This document shows positions 27,629 to 38,551 of a stretch of DNA of 64,000 nt, one piece after another (position 1 is the first letter of the stretch; the number at the start of each line of letters is the position of its first letter). Source of the DNA: Candidatus Loosdrechtia aerotolerans (GTDB taxonomy: Bacteria; Planctomycetota; Brocadiia; Brocadiales; Brocadiaceae). The notes below the pieces were generated by a model. It saw only the letters and a program-made list of their open reading frames with translations, made no database searches and was not told the DNA's origin. Location: assembly GCA_021646405.1 (NCBI GenBank), contig SOER01000006.1, positions 1-64,000 on the forward strand, written 5' to 3'. A program made the position numbers and the translations under genes.

Positions 27629-28129
27629 TGTTTCTTCCTTTCTGTAAAATACTATGTTTACAAAAAATCGTTGTTTCTATAATTTAAAATACACTTCCTT
27701 TTATCTTCAAGAATATGTGAGTAAGGATAGTTATGGAATTTACGAGATTTTACCTGATATTGATTCACTATAAAACCTGATAAGGCACTTACCCTGTAAA
27801 ATCCCTTGTAAGTTTTCTGGGATGACTGCGTGTTGTGAATTAATGACTTCTTTTATTATTCATAATGGAACTTTTTATTCTGCTTAATTGTAATACTATA
27901 TCATAACGGATTTAGAATAAAAGTGTCAAGCGTTTTATTAACCATTCAGAATGAAGAAAATGGGTTTTATTTTGTAAAAAAAGGAGATGGGTAAGGAGTA
28001 CAAACTGAACACAGAAAACCTTCTAAACGTGTGTTATATCAGTGAATTTTTATAAGGGCATTACCGTAAAAAATAGGGGCACGCGTCAACGTGCCCCCGA
28101 TAAAAATGACCTTCCTGAGAAAAAATCTC
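27629..28129. other. Intergenic region between the octahaem gene and gltX
   Basis: About 500 AT-rich bases. The right part holds the octahaem gene's terminator (28068-28097), the rest the likely gltX promoter. No RNA gene or small ORF was recognised. Confidence 0.4.
28068..28097 (-). terminator. Intrinsic terminator after the octahaem gene
   Basis: GGGGCACG (28076-28083) and CGTGCCCC (28090-28097) form a GC-rich 8-base stem with a 6-base loop. On the minus strand it is followed by TATTTTTT (28075-28068). It ends the octahaem cytochrome transcript. Confidence 0.8.
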
Positions 28130-29941
28130 TTATTCAGCTATGCACTCTTCGCCATCATGTTTGCAAGCCGTTTTATCAACATCGCCAGGTTTTCTTCTCC
28201 ACCCAAGGAGTAAATCAGTATATTCGCCATGTTTCCAGAAATCATATGCCTTGTGTTTAATACCTACTTTATCCTCAAGTGCTTTCATCCTTCGTAACCG
28301 GCTCGCCTCATCCTTTATTTTAACAAGCCAACGGTCCTGCAAGAAGGCACCTTTTCCGTAGGTAGCACCATACATAGCTCCATGGGCCATAGCCTTATAG
28401 ATAGCATTTGTGATATAGACCAGCATTTCAAAAGAAAGACGTTCTATATTAGAAACGTTGAACATCCTGGCTTCACCGCCCGGCAACAGGCTAAAAGTAT
28501 AGTGTCCCGCATAATCCGGAGCCAGATCGCTTGGCATTGGATCGAGCATGCCGTCATTGTAAAGATCAATCACAACCTTCATCACTTCACGCCACTTTGT
28601 AAAGCTCACCTTCACGGCCTCATCCATTGCGTTGAGCTGATCTGCTGCGAATCTCGGTGAATGGCATCCTTTACATGTATCAATCCAATCCTCCCTTGAC
28701 TCTTTGTATCGCGGTGCTCCCCGGTCTACAAGGGATGTACCCATATGGCTATAAATTGTGCTGAATTTTTGAGTATTGTGTTCGCCATTCCTCATATGGC
28801 AAAATGCACAGGTGGGAGCTTTATAATTTTCAGGCTTCAGCGGTTTCGACCAATCCCATGAATGCTGATTTGCCTCATAAATCATCCCGTGGTATGATTC
28901 CTTGTACATCTCATACTCATAGTGGTCAAGTCCCGTATGGCAGATACCGCAATTGTTTGGCTTTCTTGCCTCTGCGACAGAAAAATCATGCCTTGTATGG
29001 CATCCATCGCATCGGTTCTCAGCAATGGCATGACACGTAGCACAGGCAGTTACTTCTTCTGCCGGCTTTTCTATATGCCATGCAGCTTCCAATACGTTTA
29101 CATGGAATGCCTGGGTATGCGATCCGATACCACCACTGCGGTGACCTGCCTGTTGTTCCGGATGACACTCACCACAATGCCGCCAGGAAGGCATATACAA
29201 CTGCTGGTGGTCATTTCCATGACATTTGTCACAGCCTACTACCTCTCCTTTTTCATTTGCGGCATGCTTGCTTTGTTTCCATTGTGCAACAATACCAGGT
29301 GTTTGTACCGTATGACACATGATACACTGTTCATTTTTAAATTCGCCGGGTACTTTTTGGGTTGGCGTATAATAATGATCCGGGTCATACCATCGTATAA
29401 CAGGTAAAAAATTGAATAATTTTCCAAACTTACCTTCACCAGGAAACACCTCTTTTGGACCGGTGTAAGTTGCTGTTAGCCCAAAATGATAAAGATCGCC
29501 AGAATCATCGGGACCTATCTTTTCCCCGGTTAATTCAGAAACAATCTGCTGGATCGTTCTCTTATCCGGTGAGTAAGATAGTGTTTCTGTTTCTTCTGAT
29601 GCACAGCAAGCATGTGCTTCATTCTTCGTTTTAGGGGTGGTCTCAGATACCTTAGGTTTTGTTTCGGTCTTTGTTTTGGGGATTATTTCTGACTCTTTAG
29701 ATTCCGTTTCGGAGGTTGTTTCAGAGGCGGCAAGCTTCGTTTCTGTGCGAGAAGCCACCTTTTTTTCTTCCTCCTTCTGGTGAACAACTGGCTGAATAGC
29801 AACTACTGGCTTTTCATTAATAACTCCTGGGGTAACAGCTTCTGTTGTTCTTAAGCCTGTCTGTTTACAACTAAATTGTACTGAGGTAAACAATACCAGC
29901 ATCAGTACTATCAGGACAAAAGATTTCGTTGTTTTACCCAT
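28130..29941 (-). CDS. Octahaem HAO-like cytochrome c, lipoprotein-type N-terminus
   Basis: A 603-residue multihaem protein. Eight CxxCH motifs are at 206, 237, 256, 300, 311, 331, 378 and 423, spaced as in hydroxylamine oxidoreductase-type octahaem cytochromes. Supporting HAO-family segments include HDF (318-320), CHTGLDHYEYEMYKESYHG (334-352) and ERLSFEMLV...YKAMAH near the C-terminus. The fourth haem would be the catalytic one. Whether the tyrosine that cross-links haem P460 in oxidative HAOs is present cannot be settled by eye (candidates Y524, Y528). The N-terminus is unusual: a signal with FSC lipobox (Cys 25), then about 90 residues of Thr/Glu/Lys-rich low-complexity linker, suggesting a membrane-tethered enzyme. 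It is last in a run of small redox-type genes and ends in a terminator. Confidence 0.88.
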   Translation of the reverse strand: MGKTTKSFVLIVLMLVLFTSVQFSCKQTGLRTTEAVTPGVINEKPVVAIQPVVHQKEEEKKVASRTETKLAASETTSETESKESEIIPKTKTETKPKVSETTPKTKNEAHACCASEETETLSYSPDKRTIQQIVSELTGEKIGPDDSGDLYHFGLTATYTGPKEVFPGEGKFGKLFNFLPVIRWYDPDHYYTPTQKVPGEFKNEQCIMCHTVQTPGIVAQWKQSKHAANEKGEVVGCDKCHGNDHQQLYMPSWRHCGECHPEQQAGHRSGGIGSHTQAFHVNVLEAAWHIEKPAEEVTACATCHAIAENRCDGCHTRHDFSVAEARKPNNCGICHTGLDHYEYEMYKESYHGMIYEANQHSWDWSKPLKPENYKAPTCAFCHMRNGEHNTQKFSTIYSHMGTSLVDRGAPRYKESREDWIDTCKGCHSPRFAADQLNAMDEAVKVSFTKWREVMKVVIDLYNDGMLDPMPSDLAPDYAGHYTFSLLPGGEARMFNVSNIERLSFEMLVYITNAIYKAMAHGAMYGATYGKGAFLQDRWLVKIKDEASRLRRMKALEDKVGIKHKAYDFWKHGEYTDLLLGWRRKPGDVDKTACKHDGEECIAE

Positions 29942-30056
29942 AACTTCTTTCTCTCCTCATAATTTTCTTGAACACCGTATACAATGATAAACTGTTTATT
30001 TTCCTATTCTGTAATTACACAACACTATGCCTCCTGATATAAACCATAATTGTTTT

Positions 30057-30293
30057 TCACCTTTTTGTTATTTCAACTTTCCAGACATCAGGCCCTTGTT
30101 CGATATATTTCCAGTCCATTTGTCCTTTCCGCTCAGCATCTAATTGGTACTTTAAGGGTTTTGGATCATGGTCGTTTATCAGGACCATTATCTCCCCTGT
30201 CTTCAGGGCGTCAAATGTATTAAAAATCTTTGGGTGTCTCTCTCTTGGTACAATGTTTCTGACATCAAGTATAATAGGTGAAGCATCACTCAT
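30057..30293 (-). CDS. DUF2249-domain protein
   Basis: A 78-residue TusA-superfamily protein: the start ILDVRNIVPRERHPKIF, the FDALKTGEIMVLINDHDPKPL core and a closing W-K-V-E-I strand are the DUF2249 pattern. Such proteins often occur with nitric-oxide and nitrite-related genes, but their biochemistry is poorly known. A strong SD (GAGGGGG) precedes ATG 30293. It stands between the cupin pair and the octahaem gene. Confidence 0.8.
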   Translation of the reverse strand: MSDASPIILDVRNIVPRERHPKIFNTFDALKTGEIMVLINDHDPKPLKYQLDAERKGQMDWKYIEQGPDVWKVEITKR

Positions 30294-30330
30294 TCTTACC
30301 CCCTCTGTTCGAACGCTTAAAATAGTCTAT

Positions 30331-30639
30331 TTATGGTCGTGGTATGATAGACGCAAGGACAACCATTTGTTCATCCGCTTTTATTCCGTGCGCTTCCATA
30401 CTTTTACACACTGCTACAGAATCCGGTTTGACCTGATATGTTTTATCCCCAATAAGGAAAGAACCCTTTCCTGAGATTACGAGCATTACAACCTGCGGTT
30501 GAGCTGTATGAGGAGGAACCTCCTGTCCCTTTTCCAAACAGAATAAAACCATTCGCATGGCATCACTATCAAACAGGATCTTCGATACATATTTTTCCTT
30601 TGAGAATTCTATATGTTCGCTTAAATTAATCTTTCCCAT
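30331..30639 (-). CDS. Small cupin protein (second copy)
   Basis: A 102-residue single-domain cupin. It has the metal-binding pattern around VPPHTAQPQVVMLVISGKGSF (positions 41-61) and a second motif with EAHGIKA. It is a clear paralogue of the cupin just upstream (shared IxFxKE, PPHxxQ, GKGxF). Only one His is present where classical cupins have two, so metal binding may be altered. ATG 30639 lies 3 bases after the upstream stop; the SD is inside that gene's end. Confidence 0.8.
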   Translation of the reverse strand: MGKINLSEHIEFSKEKYVSKILFDSDAMRMVLFCLEKGQEVPPHTAQPQVVMLVISGKGSFLIGDKTYQVKPDSVAVCKSMEAHGIKADEQMVVLASIIPRP

Positions 30640-30642
30640 TTT

Positions 30643-30945
30643 TTACCCTGCACTTATAGCCAAAACAACCATCCGTTCCACACACCTCATTCCCCTTGAA
30701 GAACCTTCCGGGGCAATGATTACCGAGCCTTTTTCCATATCAATTTTCTGCTCATCGAGCGTAAAAACCCCTTTACCTTCCTTCACGTAGAACACCCCAA
30801 TATTCTGCCCTGCATGAGGAGGTATTTCCTGTCCCGGCTCCATACAAATAAGGGGCATTTTTATCTGCGGCGATGCGTACAAAATGTTCGGGATAAAATG
30901 TTCCTTATGAAATTTTATTTTTTCTTCTAAATAAATTGGCTCCAC
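30643..30945 (-). CDS. Small cupin protein (first copy)
   Basis: About 100 residues, single cupin domain with IPPHAGQNIGVFYVKEGKGVF and a second half ending in SSRGMRCVERMVVLA. Start uncertain: TTG 30957 is too close to the GGAGG SD, ATA 30951 has ideal spacing, and GTG 30945 is the first standard codon at workable (13-base) distance. It forms a tandem with the next cupin and probably a heteromer or related pair. Function unknown; in this block it may bind a metal or small redox ligand. Confidence 0.75.
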   Translation of the reverse strand: MEPIYLEEKIKFHKEHFIPNILYASPQIKMPLICMEPGQEIPPHAGQNIGVFYVKEGKGVFTLDEQKIDMEKGSVIIAPEGSSRGMRCVERMVVLAISAG

Positions 30946-31109
30946 GTTTATTCGCAAACCTCCACATTCTCACAGAATCATTCAATAAATACATCGTATT
31001 TCCGGTATTCCATCTGCCATAAATCACAACTATTTATTTTACCACTGTTTATGCTGATATACCACTCCTCTCCCAGCCTGGAATTCTGTATATGAATGAA
31101 AGTTACATA

Positions 31110-31340
31110 CTATTGAGAGGTTTTGTTAAGCTCTTGTTTCACCACATCATTCAACTCTTTAACAAATTTATCAACATCGGTATTATGCATCATACAAGCA
31201 AGGTTTATATCCTCGGTACCGAAGGAAGGACAATCGAAACATCCTTTCCCAAAATACTTTGCGAATACTGCTTTTGTTGCGGGATATTTCTTTACAACCT
31301 CTCCGGTGCTCATTTTTTTTGTTATGAGTAAATTATCCAT
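31110..31340 (-). CDS. DUF1858-type small protein
   Basis: A 76-residue protein of the DUF1858/ScdA-N type: ITKKMSTGEVVKKYPATKAVFAKYFG in the first half and a GCFDCP Cys pair (about 33-36), with a third Cys near 49. Members are linked to hybrid-cluster proteins and nitrosative stress. SD AGGAGG lies 8 bases before ATG 31340. It is separated by 152 bases from the cupins and by 77 bases from the radical SAM gene. Confidence 0.8.
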   Translation of the reverse strand: MDNLLITKKMSTGEVVKKYPATKAVFAKYFGKGCFDCPSFGTEDINLACMMHNTDVDKFVKELNDVVKQELNKTSQ

Positions 31341-31416
31341 CGTAGTTTCCTCCTATTCAATAATAACTGAAAAGGTTTTATAGAAGACAGAGGGAAGATA
31401 TCCCTCTCCTTTTGCC

Positions 31417-32658
31417 TTAGTTCACTCCTGCAAGGTTTACCTCCTGAACTGCCGTTTCAACAGGTGCGATATCCTCTATTTTTACTGGCAACATCACATT
31501 TGATGGAAGAGGATCAATATATTTTTTCCTGTATGCTTTACTCTGCATACGACATGTAGGATACCTCTTGTTAAAGTCAGGGTGCGATACCATTTTTTTC
31601 CATATTTCCTGAATAGGCATTTCACGTACGTTTCCAAAGCTGATTGGATTGAAATCACAAGGATTGATATCACCATACGCCGTCATATAAAACTGGGATT
31701 GCGCTCCGTAACAACCAACACCACGGGGAGAATTAATTATTGACATGCAGTTTATTCCCATGGGGTGATCCATCTCATGGTATTTTTTCGTAAGCGCAAT
31801 TAATTGTTTCCGGTCTTCGGCAGTTAATATTTTTGATGTATCTTTTAAGAACCGGCCTGATGGTATACAATCAAATATCGTTACCTCAGAAAAACCCTGG
31901 TCCTGTGCGATTTTCAAGAGCTTTTCTACTTTCCCCGTTTTAATACTTTCGCTGGTTGCATAGGTTGATATACCTGTCAGGATACCTGCCTTTCGGCAAC
32001 GCTCGGCCCCTTCAAATGCCTTTTGATAGCAACCGGGCACTTTCCTAAATTCATTATGCAATGCAGGTTCACTGCTGTCGATAGAAATATTTAACGAAAA
32101 CAACCCTGCATGGGCAAGCCTTTGAACATTCTCTTCTGTAAGAAGTAACCCGTTGGTAAATATCATGGTAACGGCTTTTGTTTTATCCACGTGACGAATA
32201 AGATCATAAAGATCTTCACGGAGCAATGGTTCTCCGCCTACGTAAATAACAAGGCTCGCACCAAGATCTAATGACCCATCTACAACGGTTTTTATCTCTT
32301 CTACGGTAAGCTCTTTTTTGGTGAGATCAGTAAAAGGATCGGCGCTGCAGTGGATGCACTGGCATTGACACTTATGGGTTATAGCAAGATTTGCAGTAAC
32401 GGGGAACGCCATCTTATACAGCATCATTCTAAGCTTTCTTTCCAGGAATCGCATCCCTGCCTGGCTGGGAAATGGTGGATTATAAAGGTTGTATACATGG
32501 TTCCCGTTGACTTTGGCAATCACTTTTAAAGAATTTAGCTTTTCAAAAAATTGGTCCACATATGGCTGCAGCATTTTTCCTAAAGTTCCCCCGGCCCTCC
32601 CAACAACCTTTCCTTCAACAACCTCTGAATCGATATGTAAAAAATCAAATGATGTCAT
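31417..32658 (-). CDS. Radical SAM / SPASM protein
   Basis: A 413-residue radical SAM enzyme. Residues 1-85 form an extra N-terminal region. The 4Fe-4S/SAM motif is CxxxCxxC at 97, 101 and 104 (CQCQCIHC, with an additional Cys at 99), followed by GGEPLLREDL. A C-terminal SPASM-like region has GCYGAQ, NPCDFNPISFGNV and CRMQSK for auxiliary clusters. This architecture occurs in peptide-modifying maturases and in the haem-forming NirJ/AhbC-D enzymes. No precursor peptide is seen, while a haem protein lies nearby. SD GGAGG is inside the end of the Gfo/Idh gene (stop-TT-ATG), so it is tightly coupled to it. Confidence 0.85.
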   Translation of the reverse strand: MTSFDFLHIDSEVVEGKVVGRAGGTLGKMLQPYVDQFFEKLNSLKVIAKVNGNHVYNLYNPPFPSQAGMRFLERKLRMMLYKMAFPVTANLAITHKCQCQCIHCSADPFTDLTKKELTVEEIKTVVDGSLDLGASLVIYVGGEPLLREDLYDLIRHVDKTKAVTMIFTNGLLLTEENVQRLAHAGLFSLNISIDSSEPALHNEFRKVPGCYQKAFEGAERCRKAGILTGISTYATSESIKTGKVEKLLKIAQDQGFSEVTIFDCIPSGRFLKDTSKILTAEDRKQLIALTKKYHEMDHPMGINCMSIINSPRGVGCYGAQSQFYMTAYGDINPCDFNPISFGNVREMPIQEIWKKMVSHPDFNKRYPTCRMQSKAYRKKYIDPLPSNVMLPVKIEDIAPVETAVQEVNLAGVN

Positions 32659-32660
32659 AA

Positions 32661-33689
32661 TTAATCCTCCATACTTGACATATGGGCCAATTTAAGGTTT
32701 TTCTCTATTTCACATAAAATATCATTTGCAACTTCAATGGCTTTTAGCCCTTCCTCTCCTGAGACGAGAGGGTCGTTATGCTGTATAACACAACTCACAA
32801 ATGATTCGAGTTCGCACTTGAGTGGTTCATAATCATCCATTTTGATATGCTCAATCTTTAACAGGTCTCCAAAAACATAACCTCTTAAATCGGCAATAGT
32901 GGAGACATCCATTTCGGAGACGTTCAACGACTTCAGGGTCAGCGCCGGCGATTTTCTATATATTAACGCATCCTTTTTCTGATAATCAATGGAAATATAC
33001 GAATCTTCAGAGAATAAGCGTATCTTTCTCATCGGTGTAAGAGATACACGACTTGCCGTGATATTTGCAACGCAACCATTGTTAAACTGAATGCGAACGT
33101 TTGCGATATCTTCTTTATCGGAGATGACATTTACTCCTACGGCATCCAGTTTCTTCACCCTTGAACCCGTTATATGAAGAATAATATCAATATCGTGTAT
33201 CATTAAATCCAATACGACACCAATATCAGCAGAACGAAATGTAAAAGGACTTAAACGATGACATTCAATAAACCTTGGGTTAATAGCAAATTTTTTTATG
33301 GCCACTATTGCAGGATTAAACCGTTCAATATATCCAGCCTGCAGTATTACCCCTCTTGTTTTACTGATATTTATCAGATCGCGGGCCTCAGATGTGGTAC
33401 CTGTCATGGGTTTTTCAACGATTACATGAACCCCGTTTTGAAGAAATTCCTTCGCAATAGCGTAATGGAGTGTTGTAGGCACAGCTATGCTTACGGCTTC
33501 TACTTTATTCAGTATATCTTTATAGTTCAGGTAATAGGGGACGTTGTAGAGCCGGGCAATTTTCTCTGCCTGTTCCGGATGGGTATCAACTACTCCAACC
33601 AGCTCTACTTCGGGTAGTTTTGTATATACCCGCGCGTGTTCTTTTCCTAAATGTCCCACACCAATTACTGCAACTTTTAGTCTTCGCAT
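32661..33689 (-). CDS. Gfo/Idh/MocA-family oxidoreductase
   Basis: A 342-residue NAD(P)-dependent sugar oxidoreductase. The Rossmann start is VGVGHLGKEHARVY, the conserved VEKPM motif supplies the catalytic-region Lys, and the second domain has HDIDIILHITG. It follows lpxA by 61 bases. In some bacteria a Gfo/Idh enzyme beside lpxA is GnnA, which oxidises UDP-GlcNAc at C3 to make GlcN3N-type lipid A. That is possible here, but its aminotransferase partner GnnB is not in the window. Confidence 0.85.
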   Translation of the reverse strand: MRRLKVAVIGVGHLGKEHARVYTKLPEVELVGVVDTHPEQAEKIARLYNVPYYLNYKDILNKVEAVSIAVPTTLHYAIAKEFLQNGVHVIVEKPMTGTTSEARDLINISKTRGVILQAGYIERFNPAIVAIKKFAINPRFIECHRLSPFTFRSADIGVVLDLMIHDIDIILHITGSRVKKLDAVGVNVISDKEDIANVRIQFNNGCVANITASRVSLTPMRKIRLFSEDSYISIDYQKKDALIYRKSPALTLKSLNVSEMDVSTIADLRGYVFGDLLKIEHIKMDDYEPLKCELESFVSCVIQHNDPLVSGEEGLKAIEVANDILCEIEKNLKLAHMSSMED

Positions 33690-33750
33690 TCCAATCTCAC
33701 CCAGATACTCTTATAAAGCATATATTCTCTATTTTGATAAACGATATTGT

Positions 33751-34575
33751 TTATCCGACAGATACCGGCGAGTACCGAAATGCCTCGCGGTATCTTCCAA
33801 ATTTACCCTTATCAACATTTCTTAAAAAATTTATCAGATAACTCACTTCAGGGAAAATATCCTTTTGTTTCTCTAATTCCTCTAAGCTTTTCTTTCTATT
33901 CAATGTATTCTTGCGGAATAGTATTCGAAATGCCTTTTTGATCTCTTCAATCTTCTCCTTTGAGAATCCTTCCCTTTCCAGTCCAATGGTATTTACCTGA
34001 CGTATTTTTGCCGGATGTCCTTCAATTATTACATATGGCGGTACATCCTGAACGATCCGGCTATGACCTCCTACATAAGCATATTGCCCAATAGTAACAA
34101 ACGGCTGTATACCAACGAGGCCCATCAACTTTGCACATCTTTCAATAGTGACATGCCCGCCTAACAATACTCCATTAGCTAAAAGGACATTATTTTCTAT
34201 AACACAGTCATGCGCAATATGTGCATAGGCCATAAAAAAGTTAGCATTCCCTATTATTGTCTTACCTCCGCCACATGCTGTACCTATATTAATCGTTACG
34301 CCTTCCCGAATTACATTGCTGTCCCCCAGGAGCAGGGAGGTGCTTTCGCCATGGTATTTAAGGTCTTGCGGTTCAGCACCCAATACTGCATTAGGATAAA
34401 CAATGTTATTCTTTCCTAATGTTGTATTACCGGTAATCGTCACATGGTTTCTAATGATTGTTCCGTCTCCAACCGTGACGTTTTCACCCAGAATCGAAAA
34501 AGGCCCAACCTCAACATTATCACCCAGGACGGCATCGGGATGTACAATTGCGGTTTTATGAATTTTTATCCCCAT
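33751..34575 (-). CDS. lpxA: UDP-N-acetylglucosamine acyltransferase
   Basis: First enzyme of lipid A synthesis, 274 residues. It is a left-handed beta-helix built of hexapeptides (IHKTAIVHPDAVLGDNVEVG) with the catalytic His region MAYAHIAHDCVIENN and the helical C-terminus GFSKEKIEEIKKAFR. Located between lpxC and the Gfo/Idh oxidoreductase. Its presence indicates an LPS-type outer membrane. Confidence 0.94.
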   Translation of the reverse strand: MGIKIHKTAIVHPDAVLGDNVEVGPFSILGENVTVGDGTIIRNHVTITGNTTLGKNNIVYPNAVLGAEPQDLKYHGESTSLLLGDSNVIREGVTINIGTACGGGKTIIGNANFFMAYAHIAHDCVIENNVLLANGVLLGGHVTIERCAKLMGLVGIQPFVTIGQYAYVGGHSRIVQDVPPYVIIEGHPAKIRQVNTIGLEREGFSKEKIEEIKKAFRILFRKNTLNRKKSLEELEKQKDIFPEVSYLINFLRNVDKGKFGRYREAFRYSPVSVG

Positions 34576-34631
34576 TTTTTCCTTTTCTTTAATATACTCC
34601 CCGTTTTATTTTATGGCATCGTGTATGTGCC

Positions 34632-35498
34632 TTAATTTTCTCTATCGTTTGCCCTTGCAATCTTTTCGGCCAGCAATACATTTAAGGAATGACCAGACCT
34701 GTTTGCAATAATGCGGCCCTGAATTACTACATTAGCCAGATAGAGATCTCCCACAAGATCCAAAATCTTATGTCTGACAAACTCATTTTGAAAACGCAGT
34801 ATTGCAGGTTCCATAGAGATGGGTCTTGTTACTTTTCCATTTTTGTGAATAATAAGACTGTTGAAATCAGTAATCCCTTTTCCCAGACCGAGCCTCTTAA
34901 ATTCCTCAATATTAGTACTTAAGCCAAAGGTCCTTGCAGGTGCAATTTCTTTACAAAAATTCTCCTCAGTAAATTCAATATCAAACGTCTGCTGTTCTAG
35001 AAAGGAACCATCAAAATCAAGGGTGTATGACAGTGCCATTCCTTTTTCATAAGGCGCTGCCATAATACTTGCATTACCGTTACTTACGAAAATGGGAGAT
35101 GTGACGGTGAAAACTCTTTTTTTGCCGTCTAACTCAACAATGCCAGCCTCCTTAAGAATCTCTAAAAACACCTGAGCGCTTCCGTCACCCGAGGGAATTT
35201 CCCGGCCATCGACCTCAATCTCTATATTATCGATACCCAATCCTGCCAGTGCTGCCATGAGATGTTCTACACATTCAACTTCAGCCTTTTCTTTTTTTAA
35301 AAATATACGCCTTTCATTACCCGATAAGGCATATACGTGGGCAGATATCCTCGGCTGATGCGGAAGATCCACACGGACAAAATATATTCCAGAATTTAAA
35401 GGCAATGGTTTAAAGCGAAGCTTTGTACACTCACCCCAAAACATTCCTCTGCTGGAAAATTCAATTTCTTGTCCAATCGTCTTCTGTGCAGTATTCAC
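34632..35498 (-). CDS. lpxC: UDP-3-O-acyl-N-acetylglucosamine deacetylase
   Basis: The committed, zinc-dependent step of lipid A synthesis; 288 residues. Zinc and catalytic residues are in VEHLMAALAGLG, FVRHKILDLVGDLYL and NRSGHSLN. It starts at GTG 35498, 3 bases after the ompH stop, with SD AAAGGAAAG. Forms the run dnaB-bamA-ompH-lpxC-lpxA. Confidence 0.94.
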   Translation of the reverse strand: MNTAQKTIGQEIEFSSRGMFWGECTKLRFKPLPLNSGIYFVRVDLPHQPRISAHVYALSGNERRIFLKKEKAEVECVEHLMAALAGLGIDNIEIEVDGREIPSGDGSAQVFLEILKEAGIVELDGKKRVFTVTSPIFVSNGNASIMAAPYEKGMALSYTLDFDGSFLEQQTFDIEFTEENFCKEIAPARTFGLSTNIEEFKRLGLGKGITDFNSLIIHKNGKVTRPISMEPAILRFQNEFVRHKILDLVGDLYLANVVIQGRIIANRSGHSLNVLLAEKIARANDREN

Positions 35499-35501
35499 AA
35501 A

Positions 35502-36170
35502 TTACTTTCCTTTGTTTGCTTCTGCATAATTCTTGTTTAAGGCAGCAACCACCTTACTGGTAATATCAACACCTTCAGAATTATAGAGAACTGTTTTTAT
35601 CCCTACCTTAAATTGCAGTTCAGAAATTCCTCCGCTCTGCAATTCCGGCTCTTCTTTCTTAATAATAAGATCGTAGTTTTCACGTTTACCTATATTCTCT
35701 ACTTCCCTACACACTTCTGAATACAGGTTTTCAAAATAATCCTTATATTTTTTTACCAGACTCTTTTCTGCATACTTTGCATACGATTCCAATTCAATAT
35801 TCTTTTTTTCAAAAGCCTCTTCATTTTTTATTCGTGCTTCACTTCCTAAATCGAGGAGTTGTATCTTTTCTTTTAAATTAACGAGCTCTTTCTTTTTATC
35901 GTTAATAATCTTCTGATAGTGCTTTTCCTGTTCTTTCAATTGGGCATCAAGGGTTTTTCTTTTTTCATACTTTTCAAACACTGCGTTTAAATCAATAACC
36001 CCTATTTTTATGTTTTGCGATGGTGAAGCAATTGCATTTTGGTCTTTTCCTTGTATGGTCTGCAATAAAAATAAAAACACATACAAACAAGCGAATGTTG
36101 TTACCATGAACGTGAGACTTTTTGCTCTTCTCTTCTTATAAATCTTATAAAATGGAATATTTAATTTCAT
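35502..36170 (-). CDS. OmpH/Skp-family periplasmic chaperone
   Basis: A 222-residue Skp-like protein. It has a basic N-terminus with a hydrophobic signal (about 20-38), then KIGVIDLNAVFEKYEKRKTL and a long Lys/Glu-rich coiled coil (about 75-165), the tentacles that hold unfolded outer-membrane proteins. It follows bamA, its functional partner, and precedes lpxC. Confidence 0.88.
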   Translation of the reverse strand: MKLNIPFYKIYKKRRAKSLTFMVTTFACLYVFLFLLQTIQGKDQNAIASPSQNIKIGVIDLNAVFEKYEKRKTLDAQLKEQEKHYQKIINDKKKELVNLKEKIQLLDLGSEARIKNEEAFEKKNIELESYAKYAEKSLVKKYKDYFENLYSEVCREVENIGKRENYDLIIKKEEPELQSGGISELQFKVGIKTVLYNSEGVDITSKVVAALNKNYAEANKGK

Positions 36171-36172
36171 AA

Positions 36173-38551
36173 TCAGAAACTACTCCCCCCTCCAAAATTA
36201 AAGGAAAATGATTCGGTATCGTCCTCGTCCTCTTTTATAATAGGAATACCATAATCAATGGATATGGTAGAACGTCCGAGGAAAGGTATGCTTAGTCTCA
36301 GCCCAACACCTGCTGATACCCTAAAACGATCAAAATTAATATCACGAACAGCCCTGTCCACCTTCCCGCTATCTACAAAAACTGCTGCACGAACGACATC
36401 TTGATATATAGGAATAAGATATTCGGTATTTATCAACATTAAAATATTGCCGCCAATCTGATCACCAGTTCCCCTATCAACAGGAGATACCCCTCTAAAA
36501 TCAAACCCCCGGAGAGAGCCGTAACCACCCGCAAAAAATCTTTCAAATATAGGAACATCTTCTCCGGTAAGTGATTCAACTATCCCAAGTGTTCCGCCGT
36601 AAGCAAGGACATGCTTGCCCCACCTTGGCACTTCAAAAAGTGTACGGAATTTGGTTAACTGGAATTTGTATTTTACAATATCAACATCCAGTCCTGCAAA
36701 CTCTAATGAGCTTTCTCCCTCATAACCTTCTGCCGGTGCGAATATATTATCAGTTCTGTTTATCATTGCTGACAAGGTAATACCGGCCTTTAAATGACTC
36801 CCCTCTGCATCCAGTACTGCTTGAGGGGTATCCTCCCTTTCGTCATCCCGCCGATCGATATCAATAACGTTAAATTCCGGAATCAATCTTACAAAAAAAT
36901 CTTTGGAAATCTCTCTTCCTACAGAAACCCTGGAACCAATTGTCTGTTGTTCATATTCTGTATACCACCTTAAATAATTAAAGAGACTCAGACCTACACT
37001 ATACGGAGAATCAAATATGAACGGGTCCGTGAGGGATGCCAGGATCTCTGTCCTTTCAAAACCAGGGCTAAAACGTAATGTTAATATTTGTCCAGCGCCC
37101 CGAAAGGCATTTCCCTGCAAAAAATCATTCCAGCTTTTTGGTAAATCAGAAATATCAAAGTTTCTGTCTGTGTACGAGATATCACCAAATGCTCCGATAT
37201 TTGCACCGTAACCACCACCAAACCGCAGCATTCCTGTTCTTCCCTCTTTTACTTCAACAATAATATTCTGGTTATATGGTTCGGTACCAGGCTCAAAATT
37301 AATACCTACCGGCATACCAGATTCCATATCAAAATATCCGGTATTGGTAAGTCGTCTCTGGCTATCACGTATCTTTTCTGTATCTAATTTTTCTCCGGGA
37401 TAAAAGGTAAGTTGCCTCCGGATGACATTATCCCTTGTCTTATCATTACCAACAACCTTGATCTTTTCGATATAATATCTCTCTTTTTCATCGATCGTGA
37501 ACGTGATATACACCTCCGCACCTTCAGAACCAAATGTATGCTTCTCCTCTACGCGTGTACCAATATATCCCTGTTCACCATAGAGCAGGCGTATCTGATA
37601 GGTATCTTTTTCAAGTGCATCTAAAAAGAATGGCCCCCCTTCTAGAAGCTTTAATTTCTCCTTTATTTCCTCTTCTGTAAAAAGCTGCGCCCCCCTTATC
37701 TCTAAATCTTTTACATAATACCGTTCACCTTCATTTACATGAATGGTAATGTGCATCCTATTCTCGTCTTCATATGAGATTTCCCAGCCAACATCAACGT
37801 CTAGCCACCCATTATTCATGTAAAATTCTTTTAATTTCACTATGTCTGACTCAAATTCTTCTTCATTAAATCTACCGGGAAATATGAATGTCGGGAAACG
37901 CTTTTGCCGGGTCTCCATCTGCTTCAGAAGTTTTCTTCGCTTGAAATTTTTATTCCCTACAAACCGGATCTTTGCAATACGGATTCTTGGGCCTTCAAGG
38001 ATATTGAAGATAACAATATTTTTTCCGTCAACAGTCTTACTTTCTGCACGTACTTCTATTTTCGGATAATTTTTTTTGATATAGAACTCTCTAATTTTGT
38101 CTTCGTCTAATTTGAGGAGGTAACGTTTTAGATAATCACCCTCTTTCAATTCAATGAGGTCTTTGAGTTTTTTTGTTTTTATTTTTTCATTGCCAAGAAA
38201 CCGTATTTCATCGATTATTTCTCGTTCTGAGACGAAAAATATAAGCTTTAGCCCTCCTGCTATCTCTTCCAGCTCTACCTCGATATTATCAAAGAACCCC
38301 ATTGACCATATTGCGTCGACATCCTGGTTAATCAACTTCGGATCGTAAAGATCGCCCTCCTTCACACGAATACTACTGCGAATTGCGGCAGTGCTAATCC
38401 GTTGATTCCCTTTGATTTCAATCTGTTTAATGACCTGGGATATTTTTTCCGCCGTTTCAGCACAGAGAAATTTTACATAGACAAAACAGCAAGTCATCGC
38501 TAGCAAGAGAAATACGCTTGTTCCCAGTAACAAGGTCCTGTATTTCATCAT
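36173..38551 (-). CDS. bamA: Outer-membrane assembly factor BamA
   Basis: A 792-residue Omp85 protein. A signal anchor (about 8-28) leads to five POTRA domains (about 40-440, each with the IxxIxxxGNxxxxxxxIRxxL pattern) and a 16-strand barrel with the conserved GGYGSLRGFDFRGVSP loop and C-terminal FNFGGGSSF. It inserts beta-barrel proteins such as the porin in this window. Its ATG overlaps the dnaB stop (TAATG). Confidence 0.95.
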   Translation of the reverse strand: MMKYRTLLLGTSVFLLLAMTCCFVYVKFLCAETAEKISQVIKQIEIKGNQRISTAAIRSSIRVKEGDLYDPKLINQDVDAIWSMGFFDNIEVELEEIAGGLKLIFFVSEREIIDEIRFLGNEKIKTKKLKDLIELKEGDYLKRYLLKLDEDKIREFYIKKNYPKIEVRAESKTVDGKNIVIFNILEGPRIRIAKIRFVGNKNFKRRKLLKQMETRQKRFPTFIFPGRFNEEEFESDIVKLKEFYMNNGWLDVDVGWEISYEDENRMHITIHVNEGERYYVKDLEIRGAQLFTEEEIKEKLKLLEGGPFFLDALEKDTYQIRLLYGEQGYIGTRVEEKHTFGSEGAEVYITFTIDEKERYYIEKIKVVGNDKTRDNVIRRQLTFYPGEKLDTEKIRDSQRRLTNTGYFDMESGMPVGINFEPGTEPYNQNIIVEVKEGRTGMLRFGGGYGANIGAFGDISYTDRNFDISDLPKSWNDFLQGNAFRGAGQILTLRFSPGFERTEILASLTDPFIFDSPYSVGLSLFNYLRWYTEYEQQTIGSRVSVGREISKDFFVRLIPEFNVIDIDRRDDEREDTPQAVLDAEGSHLKAGITLSAMINRTDNIFAPAEGYEGESSLEFAGLDVDIVKYKFQLTKFRTLFEVPRWGKHVLAYGGTLGIVESLTGEDVPIFERFFAGGYGSLRGFDFRGVSPVDRGTGDQIGGNILMLINTEYLIPIYQDVVRAAVFVDSGKVDRAVRDINFDRFRVSAGVGLRLSIPFLGRSTISIDYGIPIIKEDEDDTESFSFNFGGGSSF

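Follow-up and report, generated by a model that had tools for sequence, protein, structure and literature searches.

The window, as the whole analysed stretch is called here, comprises 64,000 nucleotides of contig SOER01000006.1 from Candidatus Loosdrechtia aerotolerans, an anammox bacterium of the Brocadiales with a genome of 3.26 Mb in 61 contigs. Energy metabolism in anammox bacteria runs on nitric oxide (NO), hydroxylamine and hydrazine, and each organism has about ten proteins resembling hydroxylamine oxidoreductase (HAO). To our knowledge, the function of most of these HAO-like proteins, kusta0043 of Kuenenia stuttgartiensis among them, is unstudied. The locus described here encodes an octahaem HAO-like protein behind a cassette of small genes for a DUF1858 protein, two cupins and a DUF2249 protein. 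The arrangement is conserved in the family Brocadiaceae, and a functional link between the cassette and the octahaem protein is suggested.

All of the genes lie on the minus strand, in the order GFO/IDH/MocA oxidoreductase (GFO), radical SAM/SPASM protein, DUF1858 protein, cupin A, cupin B, DUF2249 protein, octahaem protein and terminator (Table 1). A preliminary description of the locus had read an HAO-type cytochrome with eight CxxCH motifs behind genes of the same direction and ahead of a terminator, and motifs, domain searches and a hairpin followed by a T run confirm this. The intergenic gaps are 2 bp between GFO and the radical SAM gene, 76 bp between the latter and DUF1858, 152 bp from DUF1858 to cupin A, 3 bp from cupin A to cupin B, 37 bp from cupin B to DUF2249, and 115 bp from DUF2249 to the octahaem gene. 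Promoter-like sites are no more frequent than in shuffled sequence.

Table 1. Genes and other features of the octahaem locus. The names LpxA, LpxC, OmpH and BamA were assigned from sequence and context, not from a family search.
Feature	Coordinates	Strand	Remarks
Intrinsic terminator 3′ of octahaem gene	28075..28098	-	strong hairpin and T run
Octahaem HAO-like protein	28130..29941	-	603 aa; eight CxxCH, P460-type active-site residues
Signal, weak lipobox and linker of octahaem protein	29560..29941	-	VQFSC, Cys25; E/K/T-rich linker to about residue 127
DUF2249 protein	30057..30293	-	78 aa; predicted TusA/SirA-like fold, cysteine-free
Small cupin B	30331..30639	-	102 aa
Small cupin A	30643..30957	-	104 aa; TTG start
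DUF1858 / hybrid-cluster-protein-associated redox-disulfide domain	31110..31340	-	76 aa; conserved CFDCP and CMMH
Radical SAM/SPASM protein	31417..32658	-	judged outside the set; final gene of upstream envelope operon
Upstream envelope operon	32661..38551	-	GFO/IDH/MocA oxidoreductase, LpxA, LpxC, OmpH-like, BamA-like

The octahaem protein belongs to the HAO-like octahaem family, with Multi-haem_cyto and Hao_C domains above cut-off in addition to its eight CxxCH motifs. Its best match in the Protein Data Bank (PDB) is hydroxylamine oxidase (HOX) of K. stuttgartiensis (4n4j, 646.9 bits). The cross-link tyrosine is present at the aligned position (Y in GATYGKG), as is the distal Asp-His pair (GLDHYEYE), and this tyrosine has been described for oxidative HAOs (PMC12758564). 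By its active-site residues the protein would thus be a P460-type (oxidative) member of the family. An identity as hydrazine dehydrogenase (HDH) was rejected, as the score against NF052343 (466.7 bits) falls below the equivalog cut-off of 900. In a tree of 60 rows, the protein stands in a supported Brocadiaceae clade that is nested in a larger group with sequences of family f3, of genera g21 and g22, and of the HAO9-like type, apart from HOX and HDH. The tree alignment further indicates that the tyrosine and the Asp-His pair are kept in all but one orthologue. An AlphaFold model (mean predicted local distance difference test score, pLDDT, of 40) was not used. The same genome encodes an HAO9-like paralogue (L150:7767-9356, contig C31) in which, as in its relatives, the distal pair is Glu-Gln in every readable sequence sampled while the tyrosine is kept; its chemistry may differ from that of HOX.

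Length, percent identity and distribution, rather than the deposited sequence, identify the octahaem protein as very probably K. stuttgartiensis kusta0043. By its distribution, the kusta0043 orthologue probably belongs to clade HAO4, a name that reportedly comes from Okubo et al. 2021. kusta0043 has been published as a protein of 591 residues with 89-91% identity to Jettenia (PMC3482989); the orthologue in the complete Kuenenia-type genome G032 has 591 residues and is 92% identical to Jettenia over 225 columns. HAO4 is reported to be absent from Scalindua (PMC12758564), and the octahaem orthologue is absent from the Scalindua-like genus g20. If the protein is kusta0043, its expression has been recorded in a metatranscriptome of anammox granules, where the table gives 327.7 compared with 2944 for hydrazine dehydrogenase (PMC4913261), and its level drops after exposure to hydrazine (PMC12053348).

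The N-terminal tail, with a signal, a lipobox and a linker of roughly 50-125 residues rich in E, K, T and P, is a feature of Brocadiaceae, and f3 orthologues lack the long linker. The lipobox and Thr/Glu/Lys linker noticed at the outset are of unequal strength. The linker is real (71% E/K/T/S/P/A over residues 26-125); the lipobox of the window, VQFSC, fails a PROSITE-like pattern because of the Gln at position -3 and passes only a loosened one. A strict lipobox occurs somewhere in the tail of 23 of 30 orthologous sequences; orthologues from Kuenenia lack the lipobox cysteine. Membrane anchoring thus appears likely in most species; going by these sequences it is not a conserved property of the orthologues.

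Conservation of the locus was surveyed in 62 Brocadiales genomes, 33 of which belong to Brocadiaceae (family f1). A search of genome contigs recovered the block in Brocadia, Jettenia, K. hertensis and further Brocadiaceae. DUF2249 is present in 32 of the 33 genomes, the sole exception being 58% complete, and coordinate comparison places the octahaem gene directly 3′ of it in 30 of 31 assessable genomes; G043 could not be assessed as its contig ends there. The full order DUF1858-cupin-(cupin)-DUF2249-octahaem-terminator is likewise kept in 30/31, with a terminator-like hairpin 3′ of the octahaem gene in nearly all orthologous loci, and in most genomes of g3 (Brocadia-type) and g11 cupin B went undetected at this position. 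Gene order in Brocadiaceae is therefore conserved far beyond chance, and the concern that it might be found only here proved wrong. GltX, the gene downstream in the window, was found 3′ of the octahaem gene in no other locus, so that the octahaem gene stayed last while its downstream surroundings changed. The gene for a nitrogen-redox octahaem protein closes an outer-membrane/lipid A operon in Brocadiaceae (28130-38551 in the window), which could hint at a location in the envelope rather than the anammoxosome.

The single exception to this order is the congener G033, assembled as one contig, in which the octahaem orthologue lies at 0.69 Mb and the cassette at 3.42 Mb, about 2.7 Mb apart. Its octahaem gene (L132:6573-8255) is an open frame with eight haem motifs and keeps 119 of 123 otherwise invariant columns; the cross-link tyrosine is deleted and the distal Asp is replaced by Glu. 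The neighbours, on the other strand, encode a cytochrome b/c protein and a Rieske protein. This single case may represent a shift toward the tyrosine-less, reductive type, or decay.

The radical SAM/SPASM gene has a different history. Five genes had been counted as leading to the octahaem gene; four of them, the small genes, hold, and the radical SAM gene is judged to be a member of the BamA-OmpH-LpxC-LpxA-GFO envelope operon instead, because of the intergenic gaps (2 bp vs 76 bp) and synteny. Its orthologues (73-91% identical) close this operon in families f1 to f4, and in most f2-f4 loci they are followed by rpsB, tsf, pyrH and frr (names read from sequence), with neither cassette nor octahaem gene. 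Homologues in non-anammox planctomycetes (53-57% identical) lie near LpxA and GFO in three of six loci; two of the others are too short to tell, and L227 has no LpxA or GFO neighbours. The gene is absent from g20 and cleanly absent from G032, where DUF1858 begins within about 10 bp of the GFO stop and the cassette remains together with an octahaem gene whose active-site residues are intact. The octahaem protein therefore cannot depend on this enzyme for its maturation, and the proposed modification of that protein by the radical SAM enzyme was rejected on distribution, as presence and absence do not track the octahaem gene. A role as a known haem enzyme was also rejected, the score being far below the AhbD/NirJ equivalog cut-offs. 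The radical SAM/SPASM protein (31417-32658 in the window; L225, L226 and L228) is highly conserved and linked to LpxA/GFO in several planctomycete families; a role in the lipid or sugar chemistry of the envelope is possible.

The small proteins, which have no obvious signal peptide, belong to families tied to NO, nitrate and nitrite chemistry, as the preliminary description had proposed for NO and nitrite; domain fusions and experiments in Thermus and Bradyrhizobium bear this out. The DUF1858 protein passes the NCBI model for hybrid-cluster-protein-associated redox-disulfide domains, and its CFDCP and CMMH motifs are kept in all lineages. RH and NDHxPxPLxYQ of DUF2249 are kept even in distant fusions. 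Elsewhere in Planctomycetota, fusions of DUF2249 with hemerythrin occur, one of them in a cluster that also contains a small cupin gene, as do fusions of DUF1858 with NnrS. The model of the DUF2249 protein is confident (pLDDT 93) and its nearest fold is TusA/SirA (Z 8-9, best Foldseek E 0.01), with unrelated folds not far under at Z 7-7.5; a sulfur carrier was rejected, since the protein has no cysteine despite the predicted fold. In Thermus, DrpA (DUF2249) and DrpB (DUF1858 with two DUF2249 domains) alter the expression and activity of nitrate reductase and have been proposed as nitrate sensors (PMC6282519). In Bradyrhizobium, a DUF1858 gene listed beside nnrR is strongly NnrR-dependent (PMC6710368), and in Haloferax mediterranei four DUF2249 genes are upregulated during denitrification (PMC11218638). 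By analogy, an accessory role responsive to nitrogen oxides is the best-supported proposal and probably applies to the cassette. No paper joining anammox with DUF2249 or DUF1858 was found among the literature matches listed.

The order DUF1858-cupin A-(cupin B)-DUF2249 is kept in three contexts: behind the radical SAM gene in Brocadiaceae, in Scalindua-like genomes, many of which have it beside dnaA, dnaN and gyrB (names read from sequence), and, in family f5, close to a LysM-YkuD gene. G060 has the cassette except for DUF2249. Outside Brocadiaceae, the cassette and the octahaem gene are distributed independently. Among Scalindua-like genomes, only G049 and G058 have an HAO gene adjoining the cassette; it encodes the HAO9-like paralogue and lies immediately upstream in the same orientation. 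The cassette has thus been joined separately to two members of the HAO family, which by a rough estimate would arise by chance in about four contexts with a probability of about 3e-4, if ten of 3000 genes are taken to be HAO-like and the contexts to be independent. In genus g19 of family f4, an HAO9-like gene lies directly behind the gene for an NnrS protein that also contains ScdA_N and DUF1858 domains; at L161:7420-9768 and L170:6458-8887 this NnrS/COX1-like membrane protein has two stretches of each domain. The cassette-less f3 genomes encode a protein of 160 aa whose C-terminal half contains a DUF1858 domain (L208:3168-3650, L209:251-730, L210:3683-4165); its N-terminal half looks similar to the C-terminal one, and in L210 it is preceded by a DUF4438 protein.

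The reading put forward here, tentatively and as something less than probable, is that Brocadiaceae combine a Drp-type cassette responsive to nitrogen oxides or NO with an octahaem oxidase of the P460 type that is secreted and in most cases anchored by a lipid. The two modules would have become neighbours at the base of the family. The first, comprising a DUF1858 redox-disulfide protein, one or two small cupins and a TusA-fold DUF2249 protein, would be cytoplasmic and work like Thermus DrpA/DrpB, responding to nitrite, NO, hydroxylamine or nitrosative damage and adjusting the expression or maturation of nitrogen-redox enzymes. The second, from the HOX/HDH subclade, would be a secreted P460-type octahaem enzyme with hydroxylamine or some related nitrogen compound as the substrate that it oxidises, probably as a scavenger, and would be lipid-anchored at a membrane in most species and held by nothing or by another means in Kuenenia. 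In Brocadiaceae the octahaem gene immediately follows the cassette and closes an operon for envelope biogenesis. The two modules may be co-transcribed. Much more doubtful is a bolder version, in which a lipid-anchored hydroxylamine-oxidising octahaem enzyme would sit on the Brocadiaceae envelope, outside the anammoxosome, be supplied from the outer-membrane biogenesis operon and be controlled by a DUF1858-cupin-DUF2249 cassette sensing NO or hydroxylamine.

Several observations weigh against the joined-module reading. Most Scalindua-like genomes have no HAO gene near the cassette, and in the f3 genomes and G059, which carry the octahaem orthologue (66-74% identical), no cassette was detected; the link may therefore be incidental. 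The order in Brocadiaceae could simply go back to a single ancestor, passed down together with the remainder of the operon. DUF2249 is cysteine-free though TusA-like, so that its fold gives no function. Inspection by eye of the gap between the radical SAM gene and DUF1858, which ranges from 29 to 1137 bp across relatives, revealed no conserved regulatory palindrome or terminator.

Coincidence is an unlikely account, though the likeliest of the alternatives. It holds that the octahaem gene and the cassette came to stand in tandem a single time, at the end of the BamA-Lpx operon, and were then inherited without working together. The order of that upstream operon is as well conserved as that of the cassette and the octahaem gene, the modules spread independently over Brocadiales, and in G033 the cassette persisted after the octahaem gene moved away. 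What coincidence explains poorly is the second, separate join in G049 and G058, the adjacency of DUF1858-NnrS to HAO9 in g19, and an octahaem gene that stayed last while the genes downstream changed, GltX having been found behind it in the window only. An improbable alternative is that the cassette has a RIC/HCP-like part in general redox or Fe-S repair when cells face nitrosative stress, unrelated to HAO-like enzymes, and that the octahaem protein is a separate envelope protein for electron transfer or detoxification. The prismane-associated DUF1858 domain, the fusions of DUF2249 to hemerythrin and the Scalindua-like cassettes without an HAO neighbour would suit this account, whereas the repeated adjacency of cassette-type genes to HAO-family genes would not.

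Haem c attachment takes place outside the cytoplasm. The preliminary description's dedicated assembly or protection set, in which the small proteins, alone or together with the radical SAM enzyme, would mature or protect the octahaem enzyme, for example by aiding the P460 cross-link, draws on the strict adjacency in Brocadiaceae and on G033, the sole genome with the octahaem gene away from the cassette and also without the cross-link tyrosine and distal Asp, but is quite improbable, since cassettes without the octahaem gene (Scalindua-like), octahaem genes with no cassette detected (two lineages, f3 and G059, with tyrosine and Asp-His retained) and the G033 split show that the small genes are not dedicated to it, the window genome's single cassette is not beside HOX or HDH, which share the tyrosine, the small proteins lack an obvious signal peptide for work at the site of haem attachment, and G032 has intact active-site residues without the radical SAM gene.

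These results give one HAO-like protein, very probably kusta0043, a fixed set of genomic partners that are probably responsive to nitrogen oxides, judging by domain families studied elsewhere. The set is now separated from a radical SAM gene that would mislead hunters of a P460 maturase. As a candidate system, it could explain how anammox cells perceive or tolerate the intermediates of their own metabolism. G033 provides a natural experiment, an octahaem orthologue without the cross-link tyrosine.

Each module resembles systems that are already known. kusta0043 agrees with the octahaem protein in the length of the G032 orthologue (591 aa), in an identity to Jettenia that matches the published one and in a distribution that fits HAO4; the Kuenenia protein differs in having no lipobox cysteine. 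HOX/KsHAO (kustc1061, PDB 4n4j), the best match in the structural database, shares the eight haems, the cross-link tyrosine and the Asp-His pair. However, the octahaem protein is about 60% identical to HOX and falls in a separate clade, HOX has no long linker tail, and the longer segment of HOX between haem motifs 1 and 2 is missing in the octahaem protein. The HAO9-like paralogue of contig C31 is 63% identical to the octahaem protein and is the HAO protein that adjoins the cassette in G049 and G058, whereas it has a distal Glu-Gln in place of Asp-His and no long tail. As in Thermus DrpA/DrpB (PMC6282519), a single-domain DUF2249 protein and a DUF1858-containing partner are encoded in one cluster beside a respiratory nitrogen enzyme. 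Unlike in DrpB, DUF1858 and DUF2249 are separate small proteins here, with one or two cupins between them, and the neighbours are envelope genes and an HAO-like gene rather than nar genes for nitrate reductase. The locus thus combines a known HAO-family enzyme with a new arrangement of known small proteins associated with nitrogen oxides.

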